IMG/VR virus record: IMGVR_UViG_3300010354_000182
Span: 1 to 42,871 of that record
Reading direction: 5' to 3' (one strand)
DNA: 42,871 nucleotides
Source of the DNA: a virus
In this document: positions 2,427 to 36,651 of the stretch, in pieces
Numbering within the stretch: position 1 is the first letter of the stretch
Layout of the letters: every line of letters starts with the position of its first letter
The notes under the pieces: generated by a model
Database searches by the model: none
Told to the model about the DNA's origin: nothing
Seen by the model: the letters and a program-made list of their open reading frames with translations, nothing else
Program-made: the position numbers and the translations under genes

Positions 2427-2428
2427 AC

Positions 2429-4125: not shown

Positions 4126-4154
4126 ATTATGTATTCTTTATTTGCTGTTGTCAA
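4126..4154 (-). promoter_or_regulatory. Sigma70-type promoter upstream of tRNA-Leu
   Basis: Minus strand TTGACA (4149-4154), 17 bases, CATAAT (4126-4131). Transcription would start a few bases before the tRNA-Leu(UAG) 5' end, giving part of the island its own internal promoter. Confidence 0.7.
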
Positions 4155-4162
4155 GTATATTC

Positions 4163-4234
4163 TGGCGCCTCTGGAGAGATTCGAACTCCCATAACCTGGT
4201 TTAGAAGACCTGGCACCGCTCCATCGGCAGAGGC
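4163..4234 (-). tRNA. tRNA-Arg (UCU)
   Basis: Acceptor GCCTCTG/CAGAGGC, anticodon loop CTTCTAA, discriminator G, encoded CCA. One A-A mismatch in the anticodon stem. 72 bases. It would read AGA/AGG. Confidence 0.88.
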
Positions 4235-4239
4235 ATATA

Positions 4240-4316
4240 TGGTGCGGAAGGTGGGATTTGAACCCACAAAACTCAGATTTTAAGTCTGATACGTATACCA
4301 ATTCCGTCACAACCGC
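4240..4316 (-). tRNA. tRNA-Leu (UAA), unusual
   Basis: Anticodon loop CTTAAAA, Leu-like D-arm (GGAATTGGTA), intact T-arm GTGGG-TTCAAAT-CCCAC, encoded CCA. Two points are odd: the acceptor stem GCGGTTG/CTTCCGC has two adjacent U-U mismatches, and the variable region is only about 5 bases, where leucine tRNAs normally carry a long arm. Confidence 0.8.
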
Positions 4317-4319
4317 ATT

Positions 4320-4395
4320 TGGTGCCAACTCCCGGGATCGAACCAGGTTCCACCGCTCTTCAGGCGGCCGCAATGACCACATTTGCTAAGTTGGC
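4320..4395 (-). tRNA. tRNA-Phe (GAA)
   Basis: Acceptor GCCAACT/AGTTGGC, anticodon loop CTGAAGA, T-loop TTCGATC, encoded CCA. The base after the anticodon is G rather than the usual A. Confidence 0.88.
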
Positions 4396-4400
4396 ATGTT

Positions 4401-4475
4401 TGGGGTGTCCGACGAGTATCGATCTCGTACTTCCAGTTTCACAGACTAGTGTGCAGGCCACTACACTACGGACAC
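4401..4475 (-). tRNA. tRNA-His (GUG)
   Basis: Acceptor GTGTCCG/CGGACAC with discriminator C73 and a G at the -1 position (complement of 4476), the pair that identifies bacterial tRNA-His. Anticodon loop CTGTGAA; CCA encoded. Confidence 0.92.
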
Positions 4476-4482
4476 CGTTGTT

Positions 4483-4557
4483 TGGCACCACTGCCACGAG
4501 TCGAACGTGAAATTAAACCTTCGCAAAGTTTCGTGATGTCCCTTTCACTACAGTGGT
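4483..4557 (-). tRNA. tRNA-Arg (GCG), overlaps a gene
   Basis: Acceptor ACCACTG/CAGTGGT, anticodon loop TTGCGAA, T-arm TCACG-TTCGACT-CGTGG, discriminator G, encoded CCA. Bacteria normally use anticodon ACG (inosine) for CGC, so GCG is unusual. The 5' 45 bases overlap the last 14 codons and stop of the small gene at 4513-4716, same strand. Confidence 0.85.
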
Positions 4558-4716
4558 ATCTTTTTCTAGTGCATCTTTGCGCATCAAAAATTGTCGATCA
4601 CTTTTAGGACGATGTACTACGAGATATTCTATTCCTTCGATGATTTCAATCTTATTCATATCGTCACAGATAACAAGTTCGTTATTAAAACGATTTTTAA
4701 AAACCATTGGTTTCAT
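4513..4716 (-). CDS. Small conserved phage protein of unknown function
   Basis: 67 residues from the ATG at 4716, which has a clear SD (AAGGAGATTAATATG); the frame is open further upstream but that part overlaps the phosphatase gene. The sequence has alternating charged and hydrophobic stretches (NELVICDDMNKIEIIEGIEYLVVHRP), suggesting a small beta-rich fold. No signal, membrane segment or known motif. Its last 14 codons lie inside tRNA-Arg(GCG), so translation and tRNA processing of one transcript would conflict. Confidence 0.72.
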   Translation of the reverse strand: MKPMVFKNRFNNELVICDDMNKIEIIEGIEYLVVHRPKSDRQFLMRKDALEKDTTVVKGTSRNFAKV

Positions 4717-4717
4717 A

Positions 4718-5305
4718 TTAATCTCCTTCACGCAATCTACGCTCACGACGTTCAGCCGCCAGTGTAAAGACCTTTTCGTTGTCATTGTTGTAGTCAACAG
4801 CCTTAGGCGGAACTATAATGCCCGTTTCAGTAGTATAGCCGTTGATCGTGTGCGGTTCATTTTCATCATAGGTCCAACCTAGGCATTTCATCATCTTATG
4901 CTTGACTAAGAGGTTAGGGCTGCGAAAAGCCTCTGCATCGCGGAAGCCTAGCATCACACCAACCTCTGCCACAGCACCTGAACGGCATACACCAGCGTGG
5001 CAATGAACTACTACATTCATATGTTGTTCCATTGCGTGTTGTAGAAGTCGAACAAGTTCAGCAGCCTGTTCGTCTTTAATCATGCCCCAACTCATATCAA
5101 TAGGAGTACCATGGCCATCGTTGCTCATGCCATCACTTTCCACATCGAGAAACTTAAACTGATGTGTTTCACGGAACTGGTAGGAAGGTGTAGGAAACTC
5201 CATATCCGGATCCACAATTTGGATCAGCATGGAATTAATACCTGCATCGATGTGAAAGCCTTTTTTGATATCGCTCAGCGATACATTTTGAATCCACGGT
5301 TCCAT
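4718..5305 (-). CDS. Dual-specificity / tyrosine phosphatase-like protein
   Basis: 195 residues. The Cys-x5-Arg phosphatase loop is complete: HCHAGVCRSG at residues 101-110, nucleophile Cys102 and phosphate-binding Arg108. An upstream Asp-containing segment (residues 54-70) may supply the general acid. The family removes phosphate from proteins or RNA 5' ends; here the target is unknown. Start chosen for its SD (AAGGAGATTGCC before ATG). It sits among tRNA genes, directly upstream of the 67-residue gene and downstream of infA, 10 bases away, so it is probably co-transcribed with them. Confidence 0.85.
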   Translation of the reverse strand: MEPWIQNVSLSDIKKGFHIDAGINSMLIQIVDPDMEFPTPSYQFRETHQFKFLDVESDGMSNDGHGTPIDMSWGMIKDEQAAELVRLLQHAMEQHMNVVVHCHAGVCRSGAVAEVGVMLGFRDAEAFRSPNLLVKHKMMKCLGWTYDENEPHTINGYTTETGIIVPPKAVDYNNDNEKVFTLAAERRERRLREGD

Positions 5306-5315
5306 GGCAATCTCC

Positions 5316-5534
5316 TTATAATCTATAAGTCACTCTTCCTTTGGTAAGGTCGTAAGGACTAACTTCTACTTTTACACGATCGCCAAGAATAATTTTAATC
5401 TTGTGCTGTTTGAGTTTGCCGCCAGTATAACAAAGTATAGAGTTTGGCATCTTGTCGATTTTAACTCTATACATACTACCGGGTAGAACTTCATCAATAA
5501 TACCGCTTAATTCAATTAAATCACTCTTTGGCAT
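5316..5534 (-). CDS. infA: Translation initiation factor IF-1
   Basis: 72 residues, the normal IF-1 length. The single OB-fold barrel is recognisable: IELSGIIDEVLPGSMYRVKI, then KLKQHKIKIILGDRVKVEVSPYDLTKGRVTYR, matching bacterial IF-1 (MxGKMRxxxIRILxGDxVxVExSPYDLTKGRIxxR). IF-1 binds the 30S A site and guides initiator tRNA selection. Together with the phage initiator tRNA and bS21 it points to reprogramming of initiation (inference). RBS is moderate (AAAGAGAATTT before ATG). Confidence 0.95.
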   Translation of the reverse strand: MPKSDLIELSGIIDEVLPGSMYRVKIDKMPNSILCYTGGKLKQHKIKIILGDRVKVEVSPYDLTKGRVTYRL

Positions 5535-5574
5535 AAATTCTCTTTGTCATTTATTTTTTACCTCTCTATTATTA

Positions 5575-5649
5575 TGGCCGGGCTTGCAGGAATCGAACCC
5601 ACACCGCTTGTTTCGAAGACAAGCATGATATCCATTTCACCAAAGCCCG
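5575..5649 (-). tRNA. tRNA-Arg (UCG)
   Basis: Acceptor CGGGCTT/AAGCCCG, anticodon stem CTTGT/ACAAG with loop CTTCGAA, discriminator G, encoded CCA. Confidence 0.92.
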
Positions 5650-5653
5650 AATC

Positions 5654-5727
5654 TGGTGCTCCTAACAAGAATCGAACTTGTATCGCATCCTTACCAAGGA
5701 TGTGTTCTTCCATTTAACTATAGGAGC
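5654..5727 (-). tRNA. tRNA-Thr (GGU)
   Basis: Acceptor GCTCCTA/TAGGAGC, anticodon stem CATCC/GGATG with loop TTGGTAA, discriminator A, encoded CCA. Confidence 0.92.
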
Positions 5728-5728
5728 A

Positions 5729-5803
5729 TGGCTGGGGATGATGGATTCGAACCACCGAATACCGGAATCAAAATCCGGGGCCTTACCACTTGGCGAATCC
5801 CCA
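5729..5803 (-). tRNA. tRNA-Gln (UUG)
   Basis: Acceptor TGGGGAT/ATCCCCA, anticodon stem CCGGA/TCCGG with loop TTTTGAT, discriminator G, encoded CCA. Confidence 0.92.
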
Positions 5804-5808
5804 AGTTA

Positions 5809-5883
5809 TGGTGGTAATGGAAAGAGTCGAACTTTCACAGCGCACCGTATGAAGGTGTTGCACTACCATTATGCTACATTACC
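5809..5883 (-). tRNA. tRNA with CAU anticodon (elongator Met, or Ile2)
   Basis: Acceptor GGTAATG/CATTACC, anticodon loop TTCATAC, T-arm GAAAG-TTCGACT-CTTTC, encoded CCA. It lacks the initiator C1-A72 mismatch, so it is elongator Met or a lysidine-type Ile tRNA reading AUA; sequence alone does not decide. Confidence 0.88.
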
Positions 5884-5889
5884 ATATAG

Positions 5890-5948
5890 AAACACACTAG
5901 ACGAGGCGACCTCGTGCGCACAAGTTCCTGCTTATCTCTAATGTGTTT
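5890..5948 (-). ncRNA. Small hairpin-closed RNA between tRNAs
   Basis: A 59-base element between tRNA(CAU) and tRNA-Lys: outer arms AAACACA/TGTGTTT (5890-5896, 5942-5948) and a tight inner hairpin ACGAGG-CGA-CCTCGT (5901-5915). It is not a tRNA. Possible processing spacer or small RNA. Confidence 0.4.
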
Positions 5949-5953
5949 TTATA

Positions 5954-6027
5954 TGGTAGGGGCACAGAGAATCGAACTCTGATTAACGGGTTAAAAGCCC
6001 GCTACTTTACCATTAAGTTATACCCCC
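5954..6027 (-). tRNA. tRNA-Lys (UUU)
   Basis: Acceptor GGGGGTA with TGCCCCT (two G-U pairs), anticodon loop CTTTTAA, T-arm CAGAG-TTCGATT-CTCTG, encoded CCA. Confidence 0.92.
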
Positions 6028-6083
6028 GTATGGTCCGTATTAAGTTGATTTATTGTGCCAACCTAGACCATACGGGTTCTAGG
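6025..6083 (-). promoter_or_regulatory. Competing hairpins at the tRNA-Lys 5' end
   Basis: An 11-base inverted repeat (6025-6035 with 6066-6076, CCCGTATGGTC and its complement) includes the first three bases of tRNA-Lys. An alternative hairpin CCTAGA/TCTAGG (6062-6067 with 6078-6083) uses bases of the same arm, so the two exclude each other. The first would sequester the tRNA 5' end. Confidence 0.4.
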
Positions 6084-6088
6084 CGACA

Positions 6089-6109
6089 CTAACGTTTACC
6101 ACGTTTCAT
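6089..6109 (-). CDS. Possible six-codon leader peptide (MKRGKR)
   Basis: ATG-AAA-CGT-GGT-AAA-CGT-TAG placed 8 bases after a strong SD (AAGGAG) and 22 bases after a consensus promoter. It lies directly upstream of the competing hairpins and tRNA-Lys(UUU), which reads its AAA codons. It may be a translated leader or chance; nothing in it suggests a functional product. Confidence 0.35.
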   Translation of the reverse strand: MKRGKR

Positions 6110-6130
6110 GTCTATCTCCTTAGTTTATAT

Positions 6131-6159
6131 ATTGTATATTCACTTTAATGTTTTGTCAA
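6131..6159 (-). promoter_or_regulatory. Sigma70-type promoter upstream of tRNA-Lys
   Basis: Minus strand TTGACA (6154-6159), 17 bases, TACAAT (6131-6136): a perfect -35 and spacing. It would drive the short leader, tRNA-Lys and the genes leftward. Confidence 0.8.
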
Positions 6160-6189
6160 TCCAAATTATTCCTATGATAACCAAAATAA

Positions 6190-6207
6190 TTACGACCACG
6201 GCCCCAT
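6190..6207 (-). other. Five-codon frame with strong SD (MGPWS)
   Basis: ATG at 6207 follows AAGGAGAAAACAAA, a good SD, but the frame ends after five codons. In another frame a GTG at 6199 opens a 19-codon hydrophobic peptide (starting VVVIILVIIGIIW). Possible remnant, micro-peptide or frameshifted small membrane gene. Confidence 0.2.
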
Positions 6208-6219
6208 TTTGTTTTCTCC

Positions 6220-6396
6220 TTATCCTCTAAAGGTACAACTGGCAGATATTCTGTAGTTGTCTATGTTAATTCTCTTTTCAAATTGTTCTTTTGCTTTTAA
6301 ACAACTTTCATGATCTCCAAACTTAGCGTGTATACTACCGTTAGTAGTGTTTGCTCCTGGTATAGTGCTCCACATCATTATTATCAATAACCACAT
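6220..6396 (-). CDS. Small exported protein of unknown function
   Basis: 58 residues from the ATG at 6396, chosen for its SD (AAGGAGATTATA). Residues 1-15 (MWLLIIMMWSTIPGA) look like a signal peptide or N-terminal anchor. The rest is polar with two Cys (about residues 33 and 54) that could form a disulfide in the periplasm. No family recognised. It stands between tRNA-Ile and the tRNA-Lys promoter, so it is transcribed with the island. Confidence 0.7.
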   Translation of the reverse strand: MWLLIIMMWSTIPGANTTNGSIHAKFGDHESCLKAKEQFEKRINIDNYRISASCTFRG

Positions 6397-6408
6397 TATA
6401 ATCTCCTT

Positions 6409-6482
6409 TGGTGCCCAGACCAAGAATTGAACTTGAAATAATCGCTTATCAAGCGACCGTTATACCATTTAACTATCCGGGC
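6409..6482 (-). tRNA. tRNA-Ile (GAU)
   Basis: Acceptor GCCCGGA/TCTGGGC, anticodon loop TTGATAA, T-arm CAAG-TTCAATT-CTTG, discriminator A, encoded CCA. Confidence 0.92.
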
Positions 6483-6487
6483 GTATT

Positions 6488-6579
6488 TGGCGGAAGCGGT
6501 GAGATTCGAACTCACGAACGGGATAAACCGTTGCTAGTTTTCAAGACTAGTGCAATCAGCCGGACTCTGCCACACTTCC
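6488..6579 (-). tRNA. tRNA-Ser (UGA)
   Basis: Acceptor GGAAGTG/CGCTTCC, anticodon stem CTAGT/ACTAG with loop CTTGAAA, long variable arm (AACGG/CCGTT), encoded CCA. 92 bases, normal class II serine tRNA. Confidence 0.93.
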
Positions 6580-6586
6580 ATGATAC

Positions 6587-6667
6587 TGGTGCCCCTAATC
6601 GGATTCGAACCGATAGTTATGACACTCCTTTTGAGAGAGCCGCCTTTACCAATTTGGCCATAGGGGC
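6587..6667 (-). tRNA. tRNA-Leu (CAA)
   Basis: Acceptor GCCCCTA/TAGGGGC, Leu-like D-arm, anticodon loop CTCAAAA, T-arm ATCGG-TTCGAAT-CCGAT, encoded CCA. The variable region is short for leucine. Confidence 0.88.
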
Positions 6668-6671
6668 AATC

Positions 6672-6749
6672 TGGAGCACAGGGCCGGATTCGAACCGGCG
6701 GCTTTACGGTTTTGCAGACCGTTGCATTGGGCCTCTCTGCCACCTGTGC
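6672..6749 (-). tRNA. tRNA-Cys (GCA)
   Basis: Acceptor GCACAGG/CCTGTGC, anticodon stem CGGT/ACCG with loop CTGCAAA, discriminator U73 (a Cys identity base), encoded CCA. Confidence 0.93.
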
Positions 6750-6752
6750 TTA

Positions 6753-7358
6753 TTACATTGTAGGACCGTTACCGTTACGGAAACCGACCTCTCCACCTTC
6801 TTCTTTGATTCGCTTAATCACATCTTCAAACAAGATTGGAGCAAAGTCCGGTGTTTGCTCTACGCAGACGCAATGATAACGATTATCAATAACATCGCTA
6901 TATAACACTTCACCAGTCCTAGCATCAACACCACGAGCCTTTGTTACACGATTTGCATGTAAGTGACCGTGAATGTTAACACCGAAGCGACCCAACGATG
7001 CTTCGTGAACAGGAATATGGCTTAAGATCATTCCGTTCATAACGTGATATGCACGTAATTCACGAAAGTACTCGCCGTACTCTGTGTCACGAAAGATATC
7101 GTGGTTACCTCTAATTAAAACTTTGTCACCATTCAAGCGACCCAATGTCTTTAATGCTTTACGATTAATGACAACATCGCCTAAGTGGTAGACTTTGTCT
7201 GTAGGCTTGACTCTTTCGTTCCAAGCCTTGACCATGGCTTCATCCATTTCGTCTGGATCTGTCCACGGACGTAATTTTGTAACACCATCACTTCTAGTGA
7301 AACGGCATACACCGGCGTGGCCGAAGTGCGTATCACTTACTAAAAACACGCTAGGCAT
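6753..7358 (-). CDS. Calcineurin-like metallophosphoesterase
   Basis: 201 residues with the full metal-binding set: DTH at 9-11, GD at 60-61, GNHD at 84-87, a histidine near SHIPVH (113-118) and GHLH at 131-134. These bind two metals and hydrolyse phosphoesters; the family includes small bacterial phosphodiesterases and phage phosphatases, so the substrate cannot be told. A good SD (GGAGGGCACT) precedes the ATG. It lies 3 bases past tRNA-Cys within the tRNA island, so an RNA-related role is possible but unproven. A second, unrelated-looking phosphoesterase is at 18683. Confidence 0.88.
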   Translation of the reverse strand: MPSVFLVSDTHFGHAGVCRFTRSDGVTKLRPWTDPDEMDEAMVKAWNERVKPTDKVYHLGDVVINRKALKTLGRLNGDKVLIRGNHDIFRDTEYGEYFRELRAYHVMNGMILSHIPVHEASLGRFGVNIHGHLHANRVTKARGVDARTGEVLYSDVIDNRYHCVCVEQTPDFAPILFEDVIKRIKEEGGEVGFRNGNGPTM

Positions 7359-7380
7359 AGTGCCCTCCTTTCTTTGTTAA

Positions 7381-7472
7381 TGGTACCCCGGGCCGGAGTC
7401 GAACCGACATTGGCCAATTATCTGTTGCACACGGGATATAAATCCGCTGTTTTACCATTAAACTACCGGGGC
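7381..7472 (-). tRNA. tRNA with UAU anticodon (probably Ile), long variable region
   Basis: Acceptor GCCCCGG/CCGGGGT, D-arm GTTT..AAAC, anticodon loop TTTATAT, T-arm GTCGG-TTCGACT-CCGGC, encoded CCA. Anticodon UAU would read AUA, rare in bacteria. The variable region is about 22 bases and contains TTGGCCAA, unlike any isoleucine tRNA; the anticodon stem has one A-C pair. Confidence 0.72.
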
Positions 7473-7479
7473 AAAGAAC

Positions 7480-7555
<76 letters not shown>

Positions 7556-7556
7556 A

Positions 7557-7994
7557 TTATTTCTCTACTGAATACTCGTAGTTTACTGTAGTTTCGTTTT
7601 CACGTAAAACAGCAGCACCGTTTCTGAGATGAAATTTCTTAGCCATCTCAGTCTTAGGGCTTAGAGTAACGAACCGCTCTACAGTAGGATATAACTTACG
7701 TATCTGTTCTACTGTTTCGAACAACAATTCAGATGCCGCGCCGGGTGCATAACTCCATATAGTATAGAATATAGCGGTTGTAGGACTATCAGCGTCTTTA
7801 GAAAGATCTTCTACCTTTTCAGGTACAAAATCATGTAAACTAACACAAACCATTGCTTTGGGTTTTTCATCAACCAAGGCACTCACAAATTTATTCTTTG
7901 ATACACGAAAATCGACGGGTATCTCTGGTCGCACCGGATCGTCTTTGATATATTCAAGAAGAGGATCGGTGATGTTTGTGATAAAATTCAGCAT
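7557..7994 (-). CDS. GNAT-like acetyltransferase-type protein
   Basis: 145 residues. The C-terminal half looks like the GNAT fold: a central strand with ATAIFYTIWSYAPGAASELL, then RFVTLSPKTEMAKKFHLRNGA (about 105-127), which resembles the segment before the last GNAT helix, followed by a NYEYS strand. No clear acetyl-CoA Q/RxxGxG/A loop is visible, so activity is uncertain. The SD is weak. The stop codon is one base from tRNA-Gly(GCC), so it is part of the tRNA island transcript. Confidence 0.6.
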   Translation of the reverse strand: MLNFITNITDPLLEYIKDDPVRPEIPVDFRVSKNKFVSALVDEKPKAMVCVSLHDFVPEKVEDLSKDADSPTTAIFYTIWSYAPGAASELLFETVEQIRKLYPTVERFVTLSPKTEMAKKFHLRNGAAVLRENETTVNYEYSVEK

Positions 7995-8051
7995 TTTATT
8001 TTTCTCTGTGTTATATGCGTACTTATCTCTTTACGCAAAAAATTGTAAATC

Positions 8052-8127
8052 TGGTACTCGGTACGGGAATCGAACCCGTCTTTCCACCTTGAAAGGGTAG
8101 CGTCCTAGACCGATAGACGAACCGAGC
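8052..8127 (-). tRNA. tRNA-Glu (UUC)
   Basis: Acceptor GCTCGGT/ACCGAGT, anticodon loop CTTTCAA, T-arm ACGGG-TTCGATT-CCCGT, discriminator A, encoded CCA. Confidence 0.92.
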
Positions 8128-8137
8128 AATTACGAAT

Positions 8138-8213
8138 TGGCATACCCTGAGAGATTCGAACTCCCACTAGCAGTTTTGGAGACTGTCGTGCTGCCGTTAA
8201 ACACTAAGGGTAC
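8138..8213 (-). tRNA. tRNA-Trp (CCA)
   Basis: Acceptor GTACCCT/AGGGTAT, anticodon stem CAGT/ACTG with loop CTCCAAA, discriminator G (Trp identity), encoded CCA. Confidence 0.92.
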
Positions 8214-8216
8214 ATT

Positions 8217-8260
8217 ATAAAAAACTTCGACGATACAGTTATACCGCAGAGGTCGAAGCC
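8217..8260 (-). terminator. Possible intrinsic terminator or processing hairpin
   Basis: Leftward transcript: CTTCGAC, 20-base loop, GTCGAAG (8252-8258 with 8225-8231), then six T. The large loop makes it a weak terminator; it lies between tRNA-Val and tRNA-Trp. Confidence 0.4.
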
Positions 8261-8268
8261 GTGTTGTT

Positions 8269-8343
8269 TGGTGCCTCGTGCTGGAGTCGAACCAACTGCA
8301 TTCGCCTTGTAAGGGCGACGTTCTACCGGTGAACTAACGAGGC
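8269..8343 (-). tRNA. tRNA-Val (UAC)
   Basis: Acceptor GCCTCGT/ACGAGGC, anticodon stem TCGCC/GGCGA with loop CTTACAA, encoded CCA. Confidence 0.93.
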
Positions 8344-8348
8344 TAATT

Positions 8349-8426
8349 TGGTCGGAGTAGTAGGATTCGAACCTACGACCCTCTGCTCCCAAAGCAGATG
8401 CGCTAGCCAGGCTGCGCTATACTCCG
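8349..8426 (-). tRNA. tRNA-Pro (UGG)
   Basis: Acceptor CGGAGTA/TACTCCG, anticodon stem TCTGC/GCAGA with loop TTTGGGA, discriminator A, encoded CCA. Confidence 0.93.
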
Positions 8427-8434
8427 ATAATACT

Positions 8435-8508
8435 TGGTGGAGGATAACAGAATCGAACTGTTAATCACGGCTTGCAAAGCCGTTGTTATCCCATTTAACT
8501 AATCCCCC
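8435..8508 (-). tRNA. tRNA-Ala (UGC)
   Basis: Acceptor GGGGGAT/ATCCTCC, with the G3-U70 pair that identifies alanine tRNAs, anticodon stem ACGGC/GCCGT, loop TTTGCAA, encoded CCA. Confidence 0.93.
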
Positions 8509-8512
8509 AAAC

Positions 8513-8589
8513 TGGCTCCCCGACGTGGGCTCGAACCACGGACATTCTGATTAACAGTCAGACGCATCTACCAACTGTGCTATCGGGGA
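8513..8589 (-). tRNA. tRNA-Asn (GUU)
   Basis: Acceptor TCCCCGA/TCGGGGA, anticodon stem CTGA/TCAG with loop CTGTTAA, discriminator G, encoded CCA. Confidence 0.93.
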
Positions 8590-8595
8590 ATAAAA

Positions 8596-8671
8596 TGGTG
8601 CCGGTTGTCGGATTCGAACTGACGACCTATCGCTTACAAGGCGATTGCAACTACCACTGTGCTAAACCGGC
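8596..8671 (-). tRNA. tRNA-Thr (UGU)
   Basis: Acceptor GCCGGTT/AACCGGC, anticodon stem ATCGC/GCGAT with loop CTTGTAA, encoded CCA. Confidence 0.93.
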
Positions 8672-8695
8672 ATAAAACTATATATCACTTACTTC

Positions 8696-8783
8696 TGGCG
8701 GAGAGTATAGGATTCGAACCTATGCGCCCATTTCTGGACGACGGTTTAGCAAACCGCTGCCTTAACCACTCGGCCAACTCTCC
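8696..8783 (-). tRNA. tRNA-Ser (GCU)
   Basis: Acceptor GGAGAGT/ACTCTCC, anticodon stem GCGGT/ACCGT with loop TTGCTAA, long variable arm (GTCC..GGGC), discriminator G, encoded CCA. Confidence 0.93.
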
Positions 8784-8788
8784 GTAAC

Positions 8789-8864
8789 TGGCGCCTCGTA
8801 GGGGAGTCGAACCCCTGTGTTCCGCTAGACAGGCGGACATAATAGACCGTTATATGAACGAGGC
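8789..8864 (-). tRNA. tRNA-Asp (GUC)
   Basis: Acceptor GCCTCGT/ACGAGGC, anticodon stem TCCGC/GCGGA with loop CTGTCTA, discriminator G, encoded CCA. Confidence 0.93.
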
Positions 8865-8869
8865 AAATT

Positions 8870-8958
8870 TGGTGGACCGTAAAGGAATCGAACCTAATCG
8901 CCAGCCACCCAACATATTAAGGCAACGGATTTACAGTCCGCCGTTGGGAATACGATCC
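8870..8958 (-). tRNA. tRNA-Tyr (GUA), atypical D-arm
   Basis: Acceptor GGATCGT/ACGGTCC, anticodon stem GCGGA/TCCGT with loop CTGTAAA, long 3' region, encoded CCA. Only 10 bases (ATTCCCAACG) separate acceptor and anticodon stems, too few for a normal D-arm; CCCAAC there could instead pair with GTTGGG in the variable region. The T-stem is weak. It may be divergent or non-functional. Confidence 0.75.
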
Positions 8959-8964
8959 AAAATT

Positions 8965-9191
8965 TGTAACACTCTCCGCTATGCTTTTAGACCGCGTCAG
9001 AAGCGGAATGAAGAGTGTGTATTAAAGCAGACTACTCATCGGCCTAGGCCATTTGACTGTTCGGCAATCTGCTTTAATACGAACGGTTTTTACACATCTG
9101 CGTTATCGCCACAGACTTATCATCCCCGTTGCCGCCCTCATTAATAGTGCCTGTTTAGAGTGTAGCACAGGGTCGCGTTCCCTATTAACAC
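8965..9191 (-). ncRNA. Highly structured RNA of unknown family upstream of the tRNA array
   Basis: About 227 bases without a convincing gene, between a promoter (9198-9226) and tRNA-Tyr. Three strong folds: TTAATAG/CTATTAA (9141-9147, 9182-9188) enclosing CCTGT/ACAGG; a perfect 13-base inverted repeat (9019-9031, 9068-9080) around the palindrome GGCCTAGGCC; and CACTCT-CCGCT paired with AGCGG..AGAGTG (8970-8980, 9002-9017). The predicted transcription start lies 3 bases outside the first stem. I match it to no known family (not tmRNA or RNase P by eye). Confidence 0.6.
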
Positions 9192-21742: not shown

Positions 21743-21906
21743 GGCTTACAAATATTATGATGTTTTATTCCGTTCAAACTAAAACACTGTAAAAATTCCT
21801 GCATCTCGTCGCTGGTGCTGATCAATTTTGCTGGCATCATAAACTTGTATTGTAGCATGAGCCAAACAGAATAGTCAATCCACCAATCTAAGGGCGTGTA
21901 TATCAT
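21739..21906 (-). CDS. Small protein linking the cyclase and D,D-peptidase genes
   Basis: 55 residues: aromatic N-terminal segment (YTPLDWWIDYSVWLMLQYK) and a C-terminal part with CFSLNGIKHHNICKP. Overlaps both neighbours by ATGA, so all three are translated in step. No family recognised. Confidence 0.72.
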   Translation of the reverse strand: MIYTPLDWWIDYSVWLMLQYKFMMPAKLISTSDEMQEFLQCFSLNGIKHHNICKP

Positions 21907-23948
21907 TTTTCGTGAGCGATGAATTCGCCATTCCAGTTAGGTCCTAGGTCTTGTTGTTTCATAAACTCGCAACGTTCGATCCATATTTTATAGTATTTGT
22001 CCATTTGACCTCCGAATAAGCCTTTCATCTTAGCACACATCGCTGCGGCCTCATCAAACTTTTTCTGTTTGTATAAGGCATGCATCTTGTCATGCTGTTC
22101 TCGATCTTTTGAATAATCTTCGCCACGTGTGCGTATCACTGTATAGATTAAATCTGCTACTGTTTTGCCCTTAGGTTGTAGATTGTCTAATAGCAAATAG
22201 AAGAAATCATCTTTAGTTCTGTTATATGTTTCAGCGCCGATGATAGCCAATACACCATAGGCCTTACAACGTGCTTCTAGTCGTGCGGCTGTTGAAACCA
22301 TATCACCTAGGATATCGTAACTGTGTCTATCTGTGCTACCCATCTCACCAATGAAGCCTATGCCTGTGTTACAGCCCCAACCCATTGCGGCAGGAGGTAA
22401 GCCCTGTGCTTCCATTTCTTTAGTATAGGCATCAACAGCATCTAACATTTCAAGGCCAACCTTAACGATTGTACGTGCATGATTAGGATCGTCTATAGGA
22501 GCACCGTGAATGTGCATACTTGCATCACCCACATACTTGATGACCATGCCACGATTGTCCATGATAGGCTTTGATATAGCATCCATGTAGCCATTCATGT
22601 ATTTGCCTAAGCCAGCAACATCGTCACCATAGTGTTCACCGATAGGAGTAAACCCACGTAGGTCACTAAACATAACACTCACATCTTTACGTACACCACG
22701 CTTGATCAAGTCTGGATCTTTTTGTAGCATCTCCACTACTTCTTTAGAACAGTATCCAGCGAATTGTTTCTTTATGGCCTGCTTCTGTAAGAATTCTGAA
22801 ACGAACTTGACACCGTAGGCATGCAAAGCGACCAAGAGTAGGCCAACTCCAGGGGCAGTAGCGTCAAATAACCATAGATAGAGATCGAACATAAGCCAAC
22901 TACTAACAGCGCCGCCACCAATGATAATAATCGTCGTTGCCAAACCTGCATATACATACCTCGTTAAAAATATTAACAATATACCTGCCAACGCCAGTGC
23001 GAGTATTTCTACACCGTCAGCATAGTCTGGACGTTGTATTGTAACGTTGTTAAACATTGTGCCTAACAAGGCTGCTTGAACTTCGTGCGGCCAGACCGAT
23101 CCTATGGCTGTAGGCACTGGATTGCCTAAACCTGCTGCCGCTACACCTACAATAACTACAGCACCTCCAAAATCTTTAGGCAGTTCTGTCATAGAGATTG
23201 ATTTAGATTTCTGACTCCAATCGATCCACACTCTGCCCAACGGGTCAGTTGAGATAGGACCAAATTTAGGAATACGCATTTTTTCTACACCGTTCTCATT
23301 CAATTTAATTTGAACAGTAGAATCTTGAGCGGCTGTTCTAAGAGCCTCCATTGCAATACTAGGATATACTTTACCGTCGACTGCTATAACCAAAGGAATG
23401 CGTCTATTAACCCCGTCAATCTCGGGAAGTGTGCTGACTATGCCAACTCCTGCAGCACGACTTTCTAACTGTGGTATGTTTGCAATAATACCCGGATACT
23501 GCACTATTCTATCTTGAAAATCTGATCCAATTACTGCTGTTCCTGGATGTTTTGGCTGGTTCTTATTACGATCGGAAGGCATATTAGGTAATATCACAGG
23601 GAACCTAGAAAGTGTATCTGCCAAGGCTTTATCTCCTCCCTGCCGATCTTTCTCAGTCATAAGGACATTGAACACAACTAAACCTGCATTACGTAGATAA
23701 AGATTTTCAATAAGAGCAGAGTAAATTTCTCTATTAAAAGGCCATTGACCGTATTTGTCTAGAGCGTTCTCATCTATATTGATCGTAACAATATTATTTT
23801 CAGTGGGAACTTTGTTGATTATGAGTGTGTCAAAATAGCGTAATCTTACGCTTTCGACAAATGAGGGATCCGCTATTCTTACGCCCACTATTAACGCTAA
23901 GGTCAATAACGCAGTCCAAGGGCTTAATAGATATTTTTTGAACATCAT
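21903..23948 (-). CDS. CHASE2-domain class III adenylate-cyclase-like membrane protein
   Basis: 681 residues: N-terminal span (10-28), periplasmic CHASE2 sensor (about 30-305), a cluster of spans (312-380), then a class III cyclase domain (422-600) and a helical tail. Metal-binding Asp are D429 (VMFSDLRGF) and D475 (KYVGDASM); K471 and D545 (YDILGD) are the adenine-specifying pair; R556 is present. The transition-state Asn is Ser552 (DMVSTAARLE), so turnover may be altered. It would make cAMP in response to a periplasmic cue. First gene of a coupled three-gene unit. Confidence 0.87.
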   Translation of the reverse strand: MMFKKYLLSPWTALLTLALIVGVRIADPSFVESVRLRYFDTLIINKVPTENNIVTINIDENALDKYGQWPFNREIYSALIENLYLRNAGLVVFNVLMTEKDRQGGDKALADTLSRFPVILPNMPSDRNKNQPKHPGTAVIGSDFQDRIVQYPGIIANIPQLESRAAGVGIVSTLPEIDGVNRRIPLVIAVDGKVYPSIAMEALRTAAQDSTVQIKLNENGVEKMRIPKFGPISTDPLGRVWIDWSQKSKSISMTELPKDFGGAVVIVGVAAAGLGNPVPTAIGSVWPHEVQAALLGTMFNNVTIQRPDYADGVEILALALAGILLIFLTRYVYAGLATTIIIIGGGAVSSWLMFDLYLWLFDATAPGVGLLLVALHAYGVKFVSEFLQKQAIKKQFAGYCSKEVVEMLQKDPDLIKRGVRKDVSVMFSDLRGFTPIGEHYGDDVAGLGKYMNGYMDAISKPIMDNRGMVIKYVGDASMHIHGAPIDDPNHARTIVKVGLEMLDAVDAYTKEMEAQGLPPAAMGWGCNTGIGFIGEMGSTDRHSYDILGDMVSTAARLEARCKAYGVLAIIGAETYNRTKDDFFYLLLDNLQPKGKTVADLIYTVIRTRGEDYSKDREQHDKMHALYKQKKFDEAAAMCAKMKGLFGGQMDKYYKIWIERCEFMKQQDLGPNWNGEFIAHEK

Positions 23949-23989: not shown

Positions 23990-24343
23990 GTGTTTTGGGG
24001 TTATCATTTAATGCTTGATTGTAGTGGTTGTAATGAAAATATTGCTGATAAAGATCAAATTTATAGGTTTACCAAAGATTTGGTCGATCGCATAGATATG
24101 ACAGCACACGGTGAACCTGTTATCGAACACCTTTTGCCTGGAGATCCTAAGCAAGGATATAGCATGATGCAGTTAATAACCACCTCTAATATCTGTGCTC
24201 ATTTTATGGAATTAGACGGCACAGCATATTTTGACATTTTCAGTTGCAAACCTTTTAATATTGATGTAGCGCAAGAAGTTGTGAAAGAATATTTCAATCC
24301 CGAGAAAATGCGTGTAAACTTTATTACGAGACATGCAGATTGA
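23990..24343 (+). CDS. speD: S-adenosylmethionine decarboxylase-like protein (SpeD family)
   Basis: 117 residues from a GTG start with AGGAG upstream. It keeps the SpeD catalytic spacing: Ser66 (future pyruvoyl group), His71 (processing) and Cys86, equal to S63, H68 and C83 of the bacterial enzyme. The usual ESHxxxH is TSNICAH here, so His64 is Asn, and the rest of the pocket is divergent. SpeD makes decarboxylated SAM for spermidine; some SpeD relatives instead decarboxylate ornithine or arginine, so the substrate is uncertain. The next gene starts 11 bases before its end. Confidence 0.78.
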   Translation: MFWGYHLMLDCSGCNENIADKDQIYRFTKDLVDRIDMTAHGEPVIEHLLPGDPKQGYSMMQLITTSNICAHFMELDGTAYFDIFSCKPFNIDVAQEVVKEYFNPEKMRVNFITRHAD

Positions 24344-25070
24344 TTTCATAAAAACTCCATATAAAACTTGGCCCAGTATGAATCGTTATACTGGGCCTAT
24401 TTTTAATTCAAGCCCTAGCGAAAAATACCTAACAGAAAAAAAATACGAATTTTCTAGGTGGGGCGGCGACCTTTTTGCTAGAGCCAGAGAATCATTTGAA
24501 AAACCATTAATTGTAATGGCACAGAAGTTTTGTGGTTTAGAACAGAATGGAAAACTTCTAGATTTGGGTTTTAGTTTGGAAGAAGATATTGCCATTATGC
24601 ATAACGGTAATTTAAGTGCAATATTTTTCTGTTTTCCTAGCAGTTGGATTCCTAGAGAAAGAATAGGAAAATCACTTACAGAGATTCATCAACCGGTCGC
24701 AGATAACGATAGATTATTAACCGCTAGTAAACGAATTACAGATGTGATGGCAGACTTGAATACTGGTAGTTTAAGAAGATTTGTATGGACTATCACACCG
24801 AGTAACAGATTGAGTAATCATCCAGGTTATGAAAGGCCACAATTTAAATCTATAGATGATTTATTTTTTAGAGTAGAAACTCAAACTACTGCTCCTTTAG
24901 GTGATAACACCAGTTTATTTTTTGTAAAAGTAGATGTGGTACCTTTGTTAGAAGTTTGGCATCAAAAAGATATCATATTAGAGAGTTTGAATTCCATGTC
25001 AAATAATATCTTAACTTACAAAAATCTTCATCACATAAAAGAGTTACTAAATAGAGTGGGGAGTAACTAG
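24333..25070 (+). CDS. DUF3445 haem-dependent oxidative N-demethylase-like protein
   Basis: 245 residues matching the DUF3445 pattern: SLEEDIAIMHNGNL near 80, FFCFPSSWIPRERIGKSLTE, then IHQPV near 117, DDLFFRVETQT near 178 and NNILTYKNL near 230. Family members include the alpha subunit of a haem-dependent oxidative N-demethylase acting on dimethylamine. It is shorter than many family members, so activity is uncertain; beta and gamma subunits are absent. The 3' end, including its stop, forms part of the manganese riboswitch. Overlaps speD by 11 bases. Confidence 0.75.
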   Translation: MQIDFIKTPYKTWPSMNRYTGPIFNSSPSEKYLTEKKYEFSRWGGDLFARARESFEKPLIVMAQKFCGLEQNGKLLDLGFSLEEDIAIMHNGNLSAIFFCFPSSWIPRERIGKSLTEIHQPVADNDRLLTASKRITDVMADLNTGSLRRFVWTITPSNRLSNHPGYERPQFKSIDDLFFRVETQTTAPLGDNTSLFFVKVDVVPLLEVWHQKDIILESLNSMSNNILTYKNLHHIKELLNRVGSN

Positions 25071-25144
25071 CCTGCAAGGGCTCTATATATCGTCAGCACG
25101 GCGAAAGCCCGGTATATAGACAAAGAGGTGAGACCATAACTTTT
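25039..25144 (+). promoter_or_regulatory. yybP-ykoY manganese riboswitch upstream of terC
   Basis: Shows both signature loops: GGGGAGTAAC (25058-25067) and GGTGAGACC (25127-25135), plus the internal CGTCAGCACG. P1 pairs AAGAGTTA (25039-25046) with TAACTTTT (25137-25144). The SD (AAAGGA, 25145-25150) begins right after P1, so translation control is likely; no terminator follows. Binding of Mn2+ by this class is established. Confidence 0.93.
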
Positions 25145-25155
25145 AAAGGAAAGAT

Positions 25156-25860
25156 ATGGAACTGTTTACACTCCAAGCCCTTTGGGCATTTCTCGCTATC
25201 ATATTGATAGACATTGTATTAGCAGGAGATAACGCACTGGTTATCGGAATGGCTGCTAATCGATTACCGCCTGATTTACGTAAGAAAGCAATCTTTTGGG
25301 GAACGTTTGGTGCTATCGCTATTCGTTTTATAAGTGTTGCCGCTTTAACTTATCTATTAATGATACCAGGGTTACGAGCCATCGGTGCCGCAGCACTAGT
25401 ATGGATCGGTTGGAAGTTGGTGTTTGATCACGGAGAACACAACATAGAAGCCAAAGATACTTTTTGGGGAGCCATTGGAACTATAGTGGTAGCAGATGCT
25501 GTCATGGGAATTGACAACGCACTAGGCATAGCCGCTGCCGCTAACGGAAGTTTTGTGCTGATTATTGCAGGTTTGTTAATATCTGTACCTATCATATTAT
25601 TTGGCGCAACAATGGTCAGCAAACTTCTACAACGATGGCCAGATACAGTATTCTTGGGATCGTTCGTGTTGTTTGCTGTAGCATTTCTCATGTTACTGAA
25701 AGAGCCCTTGATGACAGAATATTGGGCTCAACTGGATACATGGGCAATAAAAATATTACCGTGGGCCGCTGCACTAGTGATTACCGCTGTGCAATACAAT
25801 CAGGCTAGATTACACCTACACAAGAAATATTTGTTTAAGTCTTCTCGAACAGAAAATTAG
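25156..25860 (+). CDS. TerC-family integral membrane protein
   Basis: 234 residues with about seven membrane spans. The TerC motifs are clear: DIVLAGDNALVIGMA (residues 19-33) and DAVMGIDNALGIAAA (near 114), whose Asp and Asn residues are thought to bind metal. Members (YjbE/YkoY type) are linked to manganese export and metalation of secreted enzymes and are often under a yybP-ykoY riboswitch, as here. SD AAAGGA. The 3' end overlaps, on the other strand, the small exported-protein gene by 26 bases. Confidence 0.9.
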   Translation: MELFTLQALWAFLAIILIDIVLAGDNALVIGMAANRLPPDLRKKAIFWGTFGAIAIRFISVAALTYLLMIPGLRAIGAAALVWIGWKLVFDHGEHNIEAKDTFWGAIGTIVVADAVMGIDNALGIAAAANGSFVLIIAGLLISVPIILFGATMVSKLLQRWPDTVFLGSFVLFAVAFLMLLKEPLMTEYWAQLDTWAIKILPWAAALVITAVQYNQARLHLHKKYLFKSSRTEN

Positions 25861-26150: not shown

Positions 26151-26158
26151 TATTTATT
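26151..26158 (-). promoter_or_regulatory. Late-type promoter box (AATAAATA)
   Basis: AATAAATA on the minus strand, overlapping the stop codon of the adhesin gene, 19 bases before the ATG of the small exported protein. Confidence 0.5.
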
Positions 26159-28127
26159 GACCCTGTGTGACTGTAATGGCTGCGCAACTAACCTGAGCGC
26201 AGTTATGGGTTATAGAATAAAATTGCTGTGTACTGCCGCTCTGTGTGGTTGTGATAGATGTTGATCCGCCGCTAAGATTAATATTAGCCATATGCGCCGC
26301 AGAACCTTGCTGTAAGACATTGACAGTTTTGTTTCCGCCACTCAAATTAATTTCAGTATAATGGTTACCATTGTCTTTTTGTTGTACCGTTAAAGAATTT
26401 GAAGCATTATTTACTGTAGCCATAATACCTTTGGTACCGCCTGTGCTCTGCTGTGTTAAATTAACAGTATTAGAACTACCCAAGACATCTAATTCAATAT
26501 AGTTAGTGGCTGATATACTAGTGCTAGTTTGAGTAGTATTAGTTGTATTGTTACTTCCACTAACATAGATTTCACTGTAGTTATGTCTTGTTCCACTTTG
26601 TACCACCGTGGCTGAGTTGTTGTTGCCTATCTGTGTGATGCTGACTACCGAGTCTTGATAAGGTCTGGCACCAAAAGCAGAGACTCTGTTGGTAAATTGT
26701 GCATTGGCGTTGAATGGGGCGGCAGTCCCCCCACAACAATAACTGCTAGGGTTGGCTACGCTACCAGATCCACTGTCAGTGGAAGTAGTCGCATCATTAT
26801 AGTCGTAATAGAAAGTAATCTCTGCTATCTGCATACTGTCACAATTTAATCCACAGCCATCGCCTGCCTTGGTTGTAGGAAAGAATATGTAATAATAGAT
26901 ATATGAAGTTGAGTTAGTCACAGAAATCATAGCACTGGTATCATATCTATTATTACTCAAAGTTAAATTTCCGTCTTGTATCAGCGTCCATGTAGTACCG
27001 TTATTGGATCCGTACAGTTTATAACTAGTAGGATCTCTACCCGGAAAATCATTGGCTGTAGTTAGAGTAAATCCAGTAACCACTCTACCTGCATTTAATT
27101 TCACAGTAACTCCAGCATTATATTTGTCAAAATTTAAATACTTGGTATAGGGATTGTTGTCAAACGCATTAGCAGCACCTTCACCTGGGGGACTGTTGTT
27201 ACTGGTTGGATAATGATTAGTAATGTAAACACCGTTGCTAACACCTTGATTATAAATTGCAGTAGGGACTGGTGATGAAGGTGCTGGACCTGGAGTGATC
27301 GTACCCGATGCGGCTTGTGTGGCATTGTCGCTGGTCAGTGTTCCTGAGTAACCTCCTGCTGCACCGCTGGTAGTTCCACCGTTGGCATCATAGCCACCAC
27401 CCCACATATTAGCAGTAACTCCGGACTGCTGCGTAACACAGGTGCTGTTGCCGCTAGTCACTCCGCAAGCAGCCCAAGTACCATAACTTGGAGTCCAACC
27501 CTGTGCCTGCACACCATTGGGTGCCACACCAAACTCTGAGTTGTAAACAATATTCGTAGTAGCGGTACCAACGGTCACAGTTGGGGTGCGCCATTGTGCT
27601 CCGTAATTACCTGCCCACCATGCTCCATCAGTGCCTTTCATTTCAATTTTGATGTAGGCAGTTTGACTAAGGTCGCCCGTGTATGTAACATTGGCCTGTG
27701 TGAAAGGGTGTAGGTTATCGCCTGGAGCACTAGACCAACCAGGATTGGCTGCTGAACCGTAGTTCATAAGAATGTAAGTTTGACTGGTTGTCTGTCCTAT
27801 TAATTGCCCAGAACTATTGTAACGATAGATAGTGATGCTGGCAGAGTCAGTCTGTGTAGAATAAGCCAACGGATTACCATTTAAATCGTGTGTGGGACGG
27901 CCGCCTCCATTTTTAACATCGACCTTAAAGTTGATTGTGGTTTCTGATCGTTGTGTAGAATTAAGATTTATAATCTGCGTTATTGTTGTGTTAGCAGTAT
28001 AACTCATAGCGATGGTATTATAGGCTGAACTGCTGTCCCAAGCCCATGTTTTAGGACTGAGCAATATCAAGCATACAAGAATAATGAAGATGTCACGATA
28101 AAGTCGCCAGTCTTTCATCTGTTCCAT
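26154..28127 (-). CDS. Large secreted adhesin with curlin-type C-terminal repeats
   Basis: 657 residues. A signal peptide or anchor (DIFIILVCLILLSPKTWAW, residues 10-30) is followed by a beta-rich N-terminal region (30-205), a segment with VQAQGWTPSYGTW (about 210), a discoidin-like F5/8 type C region (about 315-465, AFDNNPYTKYLNF, YKLYGSNNGTTWTLI) and a C-terminal run of curlin-like S/G-x-N-x5-Q repeats (about 510-640). It is likely exported through CsgG and anchored or assembled by curlin repeats; the discoidin part may bind surface glycans (inference). Stop abuts the next gene's late box. Confidence 0.78.
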   Translation of the reverse strand: MEQMKDWRLYRDIFIILVCLILLSPKTWAWDSSSAYNTIAMSYTANTTITQIINLNSTQRSETTINFKVDVKNGGGRPTHDLNGNPLAYSTQTDSASITIYRYNSSGQLIGQTTSQTYILMNYGSAANPGWSSAPGDNLHPFTQANVTYTGDLSQTAYIKIEMKGTDGAWWAGNYGAQWRTPTVTVGTATTNIVYNSEFGVAPNGVQAQGWTPSYGTWAACGVTSGNSTCVTQQSGVTANMWGGGYDANGGTTSGAAGGYSGTLTSDNATQAASGTITPGPAPSSPVPTAIYNQGVSNGVYITNHYPTSNNSPPGEGAANAFDNNPYTKYLNFDKYNAGVTVKLNAGRVVTGFTLTTANDFPGRDPTSYKLYGSNNGTTWTLIQDGNLTLSNNRYDTSAMISVTNSTSYIYYYIFFPTTKAGDGCGLNCDSMQIAEITFYYDYNDATTSTDSGSGSVANPSSYCCGGTAAPFNANAQFTNRVSAFGARPYQDSVVSITQIGNNNSATVVQSGTRHNYSEIYVSGSNNTTNTTQTSTSISATNYIELDVLGSSNTVNLTQQSTGGTKGIMATVNNASNSLTVQQKDNGNHYTEINLSGGNKTVNVLQQGSAAHMANINLSGGSTSITTTQSGSTQQFYSITHNCAQVSCAAITVTQGQ

Positions 28128-34108: not shown

Positions 34109-34546
34109 TTACTTAACCTCTACGATATCAATAACTTTAGGTTTGGCCGATTCTGGAACGTTTCTAACTAACTTCACAGTTAGCATACCATTCTTAGTTT
34201 CGGCGCCTACAACCTCAATGTACTCTGCAAGCGGAAACTCTTTAGAAAAATCTCTAGTTGCCAAACCTCTATGTAGATAAACCATTTCTGCGCTTTCATT
34301 GGCTGATGTGCTTTCGCCTTTGATGTACAGAATATTATCTTCTACTGTTACTGCAATTTCTTCTTTAGTAAAGCCGGTAACTGCCAATTGAATTTCATAT
34401 TGGTTATCACCTGTTTTTAAGATATTGTGCGGTGGGTAATTGTTAGAAACACTATTTGCGAAACGGCGCTCTAGTGTGTCAAACATTGTATCGAAACCGA
34501 TAAGTGCTCTATTGATAGCATCAAGTCTTGCTAATTGATTGTTCAT
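34109..34546 (-). CDS. Small heat-shock protein Hsp20 (IbpA-type)
   Basis: 145 residues. N-terminal region (QLARLDAINRALIGFDTMF), then an alpha-crystallin domain (about 40-130): NQYEIQLAVTGFTKEEIAV, ILYIKGES, YLHRGLATRDFSKEFPLAE, and the ending NGMLTVKLVRNVPE. Hsp20 proteins hold unfolding proteins for DnaK. SD AAGGAG. Next to dnaK, so a phage chaperone set. Confidence 0.92.
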   Translation of the reverse strand: MNNQLARLDAINRALIGFDTMFDTLERRFANSVSNNYPPHNILKTGDNQYEIQLAVTGFTKEEIAVTVEDNILYIKGESTSANESAEMVYLHRGLATRDFSKEFPLAEYIEVVGAETKNGMLTVKLVRNVPESAKPKVIDIVEVK

Positions 34547-34755: not shown

Positions 34756-36651
34756 TTACTTGTCCTTGGACTCCGTGAAGGTTGCTTCAACAACTTCTTC
34801 GTCTGTTTTGGAAGTATTTTCTTGTTTGACCTGTTCAGCGGCCTGCTTGGCTTCAAGCAAAGACTTCATTGCAGGGTAAACTTTATTCACTTCTTCTTTG
34901 ATCTTTTCAGCATCATCAGTTTTGATTGCTTCTTCTACAGCCGCTACAACTTTTTCAAGTTCTTCTTTTTCTTCAGGTTTAATTTTATCGCCGTGCTCAG
35001 CAATATCTTTCTTGACCTGATGTACCATACTCTCTGCAGAATTTTTAGACTCAATTAATTCACGAGCCTTTTTATCTGCTTCGGCATTGGCTTCAGCATC
35101 TTTGACCATGCGTTCAATTTCTTCCTTGCTCAGACCACTATCACTCTTAATCGTGATTTTGTTTTCTTTACCTGTGCTTTTGTCTTTAGCACTAATGTTC
35201 ATAATGCCATTTGCATCAATGTCAAAAGTTACTTCAATCTGAGGCATGCCACGTGGTGCTGGGTTAATTCCTTCCAGGTTAAATTCACCTAAAAGTTTAT
35301 TGTGTTGAACAAGTTCACGTTCACCCTGGAAAACCTTGATTGTTACGGCAGGTTGATTGTCTTCTGCTGTTGAAAAAGTTTGTTGGCCTTTAGTAGGAAT
35401 GGTTGTGTTCTTTTGAATAATCTTAGCCATTACTCCACCAAGTGTTTCGATACCCAGTGATAACGGTGTAACGTCAAGTAGAAGAACATCCTTTCGATCA
35501 CCCCCCAATACAGCACCCTGAATGGCAGCGCCGGCAGCGACCGCTTCGTCTGGATTAACATCTTTACGTGGAGCCTTACCGAATAATTGTTCAACGGCTT
35601 CTTGTACTTTAGGCATACGTGTTTGTCCACCAACAAGAATAACTTCGTCGATATCTGCGGCTGTAACACCAGCATCTTTCATTGCGGTTTTACATGGCTC
35701 AATAGAGCGAGTAATAAGATCGGCAACCAGACTTTCCAACTTGGAACGAGTGATTTTAACTACTAGATGCTTCGGTCCGCTTGCATCTGCTGTAATGTAA
35801 GGAAGATTAACTTCTGTTTGTGCAGAATTAGATAATTCAATCTTGGCTTTTTCTGCTGCGTCCTTAAGGCGCTGGAGTGCCAAAACATCTTTGGTAAGGT
35901 CTACACCTTGTTCTTTCTTAAACTCTTCAACCAAGAAATCCATAATACGTTGATCAAAGTCTTCACCGCCGAGAAATGTGTCGCCATTAGTAGACAAAAC
36001 TTCAATTTGCTTGTCGCCGTCGATGTTAGCGATTTCGATAATAGAGATATCAAATGTACCACCTCCTAGGTCATAAACTGCGACCTTTCTATCTTTTGTA
36101 TCTTTTTTATCAACACCGTACGCCAATGCTGCTGCGGTCGGCTCGTTGATAATACGTAATACTTCTAGACCGGCAATTTGTCCTGCATCTTTAGTAGCCT
36201 GACGCTGTTGATCATTAAAGTAAGCAGGTACAGTGATAACGGCCTTTGTGACTGTTTCGCCTAGATAGTCTTCTGCTGTCTTTTTCATTTTGCGAAGGAC
36301 TTCTGCAGAAATTTGTGGAGGTGCTAATTCTTTGTCTTGTGCTCGAACCCAAGCATCTCCGTTTTTGCTTTCCATAATTTCATATGGCATTAGATCAATA
36401 TCTTTTTGTACAGCCTGTTCTTTGAACTTTCGTCCGATTAGACGTTTGGCTGCATAAATTGTGTTCTTTGGATTAGTAACTGCTTGACGTTTGGCTGATG
36501 CGCCAACTAAAATTTCTTCTGCGGTGTAAGCAACAATACTGGGAGTAGTGCGGGCACCTTCAGAGTTTTCAATAATTTTAGAAATTCCGTTCTCGACGAT
36601 AGCCACACATGAGTTAGTGGTGCCGAGGTCAATACCGATGATCTTAGACAT
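34756..36651 (-). CDS. dnaK: DnaK chaperone (Hsp70), full length
   Basis: 631 residues, close to E. coli DnaK (638). ATPase domain: [13 protein letters not shown] (4-16), [45 protein letters not shown]. Linker [19 protein letters not shown], then the peptide-binding domain and a helical lid ending in an acidic tail. No dnaJ or grpE is in the window, so host cofactors may serve. SD AAGGAG; a late-type box upstream overlaps the guaC stop. Phage-encoded full-length DnaK is unusual. Confidence 0.96.

Follow-up and report, generated by a model that had tools for sequence, protein, structure and literature searches.

A phage-borne riboswitch of the yybP-ykoY (Mn2+) class very probably regulates, at the level of translation, a phage TerC gene that is expressed late. 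The evidence comes from a window of 42,871 nucleotides of viral DNA (IMG/VR record IMGVR_UViG_3300010354_000182, the whole stretch that was analysed) and from related viral and bacterial loci. Judged by comparison of these sequences, the leader has an aptamer with its structure, a promoter motif and an alternative pairing that would hide the start codon.

The TerC locus and its aptamer

The TerC-family membrane protein (234 amino acids) is encoded at 25156-25860 on the plus strand, as are all the features of the leader described below. It matches Pfam PF03741 (TerC, 137 bits) and phrog_7180 (membrane protein, 144 bits) and shares 70-90% identity with TerC proteins from other viral contigs. Its Shine-Dalgarno sequence, AAAGGA, lies at 25145-25150. 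The upstream ORF, 24333-25070, is HODM_asu-like (PF11927), and its final codons and stop lie inside the aptamer, with the TAG (25068-25070) falling within P1.2/P2. The complete aptamer occupies 25058-25135. Both L1 strands of the yybP-ykoY class are present, GGGGAGTAAC at 25058-25067 and GGTGAGACC at 25127-25135.

A preliminary description, made from the sequence alone, had placed the conserved loops of the class upstream of a TerC gene, and had the riboswitch start inside the upstream gene and include its stop codon. These features were all found as described. The interval was begun at 25039, however, which is about 19 nt too early, and the P1 stem that was said to end at the Shine-Dalgarno sequence was not upheld. 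Its strands, about 25039-25046 and 25137-25144, are complementary in the window alone; across the alignment they pair in 47.8% of cases, compared with 47.7% in shuffled sequences, so a long P1 is not part of the conserved structure. Its 5' strand adjoins the promoter box considered below. Neither this box nor the start-codon hairpin had been noted in that description.

The aptamer helices are P1.1 (25058-25059/25134-25135), P1.2 (25066-25068/25127-25129), P2 (25070-25072/25079-25081), P3 (25082-25092/25110-25120) and P4 (25100-25102/25107-25109), with loop L3 at 25093-25099. All five helices, including the GG:CC of P1.1, were recovered by RNAalifold from 53 leaders with no structure supplied. 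Well above what chance would give, 96.6% of the helix cells are paired in 52 distinct phage aptamers; shuffled sequences gave 83.9% and slid controls 29-43%. Compensatory changes occur in 19 of the 27 helix pairs (186 cells, against 44.5 in shuffles); for example, GGGGAGUA-A-C goes with GG-U-GAGACC in 39 sequences and GGGGAGUA-G-C with GG-C-(A/G)AGACC in 13. Covariation was found in P1.2, P2, P3 and P4, as expected of the four-way junction (P1, P2, P3/P4) of the class. P1.1 has no covariation of its own because it is conserved to only two pairs, which are invariant except for one G-U.

Crystal structures of the class show Mn2+ in contact with an adenosine that does not vary, A41 (within UCA41AUUC) in the L. 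lactis RNA and A48 in that from X. oryzae (PMC6754395). The L3 adenosine at 25095 aligns with these and is invariant in the 53 aligned phage aptamers. These carry the L1 strands GGGGAGUARC and AGACC together with the L3 of the class.

Covariance models built from phage sequences were used to look for more distant members. The first model, R1, was trained on phage aptamers only, and its score of 82.6 bits for the window, a training sequence, is partly by construction. In a search of 593 kb, R1 placed no false match at E<=1. Outside the phage elements it gave 31.6 bits to a Lactococcus-type element, 21.7 bits to the Alx leader of contig L103, 21.0 bits to E. coli mntP (E 0.0045) and a weak 17.1 bits to alx (E 0.075), each at its GGGGAGTA. 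Eighty bacterial TerC loci, fetched by protein, yielded 48 elements at E<=1, all upstream and on the gene strand. The second model, R2, was made from 11 Alx-class phage leaders only, with the window left out; it gave the window 76.4 bits and also found the bacterial members. Models that had seen phage sequences only can thus recognise E. coli mntP, alx and the Lactococcus-type element at their aptamers, and the phage element precedes a metal-transport gene that belongs to the known regulon (TerC/MntP).

Covariation, the two models and the bacterial loci strongly support the assignment of 25058-25135 to the yybP-ykoY (Mn2+) class, and they likewise strongly support the earlier proposal that such an element controls the phage TerC gene. 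By analogy with the characterised members, the ligand is predicted to be Mn2+.

The check named in the preliminary description was a match to Rfam RF00080. None was found by cmscan, at both thresholds, in the window or in the whole record. The current model (release 15; 177 positions, cut-off 45 bits) gives only 38.7 bits to the Lactococcus-type yybP relative, 18-23 bits in four of 32 related phage contigs, and 22.6 bits to one phage relative with an obvious aptamer. The miss in the window is uninformative, since the Lactococcus-type relative also falls below the cut-off, which is a setting of the database and not a feature of the biology. As it stands, RF00080 misses the Lactococcus-type member and every phage member tested.

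A late promoter motif at the aptamer start

T4 late promoters consist of a TATA box of 8 bp that lies roughly a helical turn before the start of transcription; the first two bases of the box are at -13/-12 (PMC2988020). In the window a putative T4-like late promoter box, ACTAAATA, was recognised by motif and spacing at 25046-25053, within the last part of the upstream ORF. In every member of the comparison set (61 distinct leaders from viral contigs) the end of a (T)AAATA box precedes GGGGAG by 4-8 nt, and in 38 of them by 5 nt. Ahead of the predicted genes of G008, a contig of 357 kb, no 7-mer is more enriched than ATAAATA, which occurs there 57 times against 3.2 expected and 83 times in the contig altogether. 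Over the whole window, TAAATA is rarer than chance (22 against 55).

G008, G009 and G023 each encode a gp55-like late sigma factor and a gp23 capsid protein of T4 type, and these same contigs carry the riboswitch and TerC. The window, a 43-kb fragment, contains no gp55 or gp23, and has a head maturation protease and 29 tRNA genes. A phage origin, assumed in the preliminary description, is borne out by the large relatives: their genome-wide late-promoter motif, gp55 and gp23 mark the wider group as T4-like phage. The locus shares the hallmarks of a T4-type late gene, namely a box resembling TATAAATA some 10 bp ahead of the predicted start and a gp55 homologue in the relatives. Given the T4 promoter spacing, transcription of most leaders would start at one of the first two Gs of the aptamer. 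For the window the start would be at about 25058-25059, so that the mRNA would begin with the aptamer.

The box could instead be part of a stem, or of the stop codon of the upstream gene, and in many loci its TAA does double as the upstream stop. This reading is improbable, as the box is the top motif upstream of genes throughout G008 and persists where the riboswitch is lost; in L034 and L037, TATAAATA is kept although most of the aptamer has gone. The adjoining 5' flank also pairs with the 3' side at the chance level given above, and TAAATA was for the same reasons rejected as the 5' strand of P1.

The window holds several other genes. The tRNA genes cover most amino acids and lie within 1-9000 on the minus strand, with a TAAATA (2095-2100) just upstream of tRNA-Gly. 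On the plus strand an S-adenosylmethionine decarboxylase gene (speD, 23990-24343) has its own TAAATA box at 23959. On the minus strand are a CHASE2 and adenylate/guanylate cyclase protein (21903-23948), with a related gene in Methylophilales phage Melnitz, an F5/8 type C domain protein with weak curlin repeats (26154-28127), an Hsp20 protein (34109-34546) and a DnaK-like chaperone (34756-36651) which is 66% identical to phage-record proteins annotated as DnaK.

The expression platform and the proposed switch

The putative expression platform, identified from folds and from pair changes across leaders, spans 25134-25159. In it, CCAUA (25134-25138) pairs with UAUGG (25155-25159) and CUUUU with GAAAG. 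The resulting anti-start hairpin buries the start codon and part of the Shine-Dalgarno sequence, and it is mutually exclusive with P1.1. When the window RNA was folded from the predicted start, the AUG paired with CAU at 25135-25137 with a probability of about 1.0. The mean probability that the start codon is unpaired was 0.03 over 57 leaders and 0.42 over 86 other genes of G008, a comparison in which the relatedness of the leaders inflates the p-value. The helix shows compensation above that in shuffles, CCAUAA:UUAUGG being replaced by CCAUUUU:AAAAUGG (AU to UA), and it offers few informative pairs because one arm holds the start codon. In L039, L083, L115 and L125 the hairpin is absent, with three pairs only.

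The CC of GAGACC can be used by either P1.1 or the anti-start hairpin, which provides a simple switch mechanism. In E. coli mntP, Mn turns on translation initiation (PMC9603457), and P1.1 is stabilised by Mn2+ (PMC6754395); by analogy the phage switch is expected to be ON with Mn2+. A T4-type late promoter would start the mRNA within about 1 nt of 25058, leaving no 5' leader ahead of the aptamer. Without Mn2+, pairing of 25134-25138 with 25155-25159 would block initiation (OFF). Binding of Mn2+ would dock L1 with L3, and the GG of P1.1 would then capture CC25134-25135; the AU pairs left behind are weak and the start codon would open (ON). TerC would then be made at high Mn2+, late in infection, and would most likely export Mn2+ from the cytoplasm.

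The ON state is not proven by folding energies. With the aptamer enforced, and no energy allowed for Mn2+, most of the AUG pairing persists, now with a partner in the coding sequence (unpaired probabilities of 0.66 for A, 0.17 for U and 0.04 for G), and the free fold is favoured by about 12 kcal/mol over the aptamer with the rest of the RNA.

The aptamer might act mainly at transcription (Rho/termination) or through upstream read-through, with the start-codon hairpin secondary. Members of the class often do act at transcription (PMC6754395), and Rho is reported to act together with the mntP riboswitch (PMC11647493). The upstream genes are co-directional and speD has a box of its own, so longer transcripts are conceivable. 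We nevertheless regard this as unlikely, since no terminator-like hairpin with a T-run was seen by eye between the aptamer and the ATG, the leaders of the main group are only about 100 nt long, and the conserved alternative pairing falls on the start codon itself.

A different signal could be sensed by the same fold (Cd2+, pH, or Mg2+ plus Mn2+ as an alkalinity sensor), and the E. coli alx and mntP riboswitches do respond to alkaline pH as well (PMC9603457). The invariance of L1, L3 and the discriminator adenosine, and the identity of the gene, TerC as in the Mn-regulated bacterial cases, make such a change quite unlikely. That the leader is a recent bacterial acquisition riding along with TerC, its function lost, is very unlikely indeed: compensatory change within the phages is strong, the phage promoter is coupled to the aptamer at fixed spacing in all 61 leaders, and the element is present with two TerC branches. 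The joint occurrence of riboswitch and TerC in the nearest cellular relatives, and the degraded copies in three contigs (L034, L035 and L037), are what could be said for it.

Relatives, origin and biological meaning

Searching viral contigs by protein, with no regard to the leader, yielded 67 TerC loci. The element lies immediately upstream in 54 of these, a count which is descriptive because most of the 54 are training sequences of the model. The remaining 13 comprise two that are cut off upstream (L006 and L045), three with a 3' remnant only (L034, L035 and L037) and eight distant loci without the element. A DNA pattern scan found further loci, including a second class in which the element precedes a longer, Alx-like TerC (Pfam TerC, 179 bits, in L070); the element thus occurs with two TerC branches in phages. 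Pattern matches in L077, L088, L099, L102, L126, L134 and L137 had no GAGACC strand or no TerC and were set aside as coincidental. When the leader was compared with annotated phages by BLASTN, only weak partial matches to Staphylococcus phages (E about 1) were obtained.

Several of the relatives depart from the main pattern. In the three loci with a remnant, at about 40-80 nt upstream of TerC, the gene and the TATAAATA box are intact and the 5' half of the riboswitch is gone; judged by sequence, these are natural variants in which TerC should be unregulated. A subgroup with longer leaders (L025, L026-L030, L046, L047 and L052) has a start-codon-like hairpin, CCATAATAT..ATATTATGG, on a short ORF, and a second hairpin, ACTCTTTTAAGGAGT, over the Shine-Dalgarno sequence. 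The short ORF has about 19-20 codons in L025 and L046 and its end adjoins the TerC ATG; it may encode a leader peptide with coupled translation. A clear aptamer (57.5 bits) at 7866-7946 on the minus strand of L089, a 356-kb contig, has no TAAATA box and the gene downstream was not identified as TerC. It possibly belongs to another phage group or to a bacterial contig.

With the RF00080 class, and with E. coli mntP and alx, the phage element shares the L1 strands GGGGAGUARC and [GA]AGACC, an L3 with UCA, and helices P1.1, P1.2, P2, P3 and P4. The gene family is TerC, as for alx, and control is predicted to be translational, as for mntP. The phage form differs from the class in residing in a phage genome, with a late promoter in place of a host promoter and the predicted transcript start at the aptamer. 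Its P1.1 has two pairs, the start codon itself is in the alternative helix, and there is no match to the Rfam model.

The nearest cellular TerC proteins are those of Polynucleobacter, at 62-67% identity, the next being about 37-52% identical. All eight Polynucleobacter loci (L172-L178 and L193) have the riboswitch, at 53-60 bits with R1. Their leaders have a TATAGAAT-like host box instead of the phage TAAATA and an additional strand, GGTYCTTGG, able to pair with the AAGACC side, and unlike the phage leaders they have no CCAUAA start-codon hairpin. In the TerC tree, phage and Polynucleobacter sequences form one fully supported group (100/100), and a single origin of the phage sequences is weakly supported (84/53). 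The simplest history suggested by these sequences is capture of a riboswitch-TerC unit from a Polynucleobacter-like host, followed by replacement of the promoter. We favour, with some reserve, a fuller account in which T4-like phages (some above 200 kb) of freshwater Burkholderiales such as Polynucleobacter took the host unit, swapped in a late promoter, cut the switch down to a contest for the CC between a 2-bp P1.1 and the start codon, and use it, with two TerC branches, to make a late gene depend on the metal status of a host that is dying.

TerC-family proteins are also encoded by the isolated Pseudomonas and Acinetobacter phages VCM, REC1, Pyxpy02 and vB_AciJM_313. These are 35-40% identical, form a separate branch of the tree and lie within ter operons with TerD/TelA/vWA genes. 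No riboswitch was found with R1 (E<=1) before the TerC of five isolated phages.

The TerC proteins of B. subtilis export Mn2+ and supply metal to exported enzymes; Alx and MeeY are controlled by riboswitches of the yybP-ykoY class (PMC12096827). Membership in the class would imply that the phage TerC is adjusted to Mn2+ during infection. Late in infection the phage protein could serve in Mn detoxification or in metalation of exported enzymes, two roles that were proposed in the preliminary description and agree with the bacterial work; by analogy, and with moderate confidence, we favour Mn2+ export.

Riboswitches in phages are not new as such, because cyanophages are known to have glutamine-class riboswitch motifs. 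When pelagimyophages were surveyed with a riboswitch scanner, no riboswitch of any kind turned up (PMC7029224). No description of a phage manganese riboswitch was met with in searches confined to open-licence papers, which gives a limited indication of novelty. What is new here, as read from the sequences, is the combination of a T4-like late promoter at the aptamer start with a platform that would hide the start codon, within a known riboswitch class. Since the current Rfam model overlooks dozens of clear yybP-ykoY members, phage riboswitches may be under-counted. The very short leaders, of about 100 nt, present a whole switch that is open to dissection. If the switch is functional, these phages would go beyond merely carrying a metal transporter and would match the amount made to the host's metal status late in infection.
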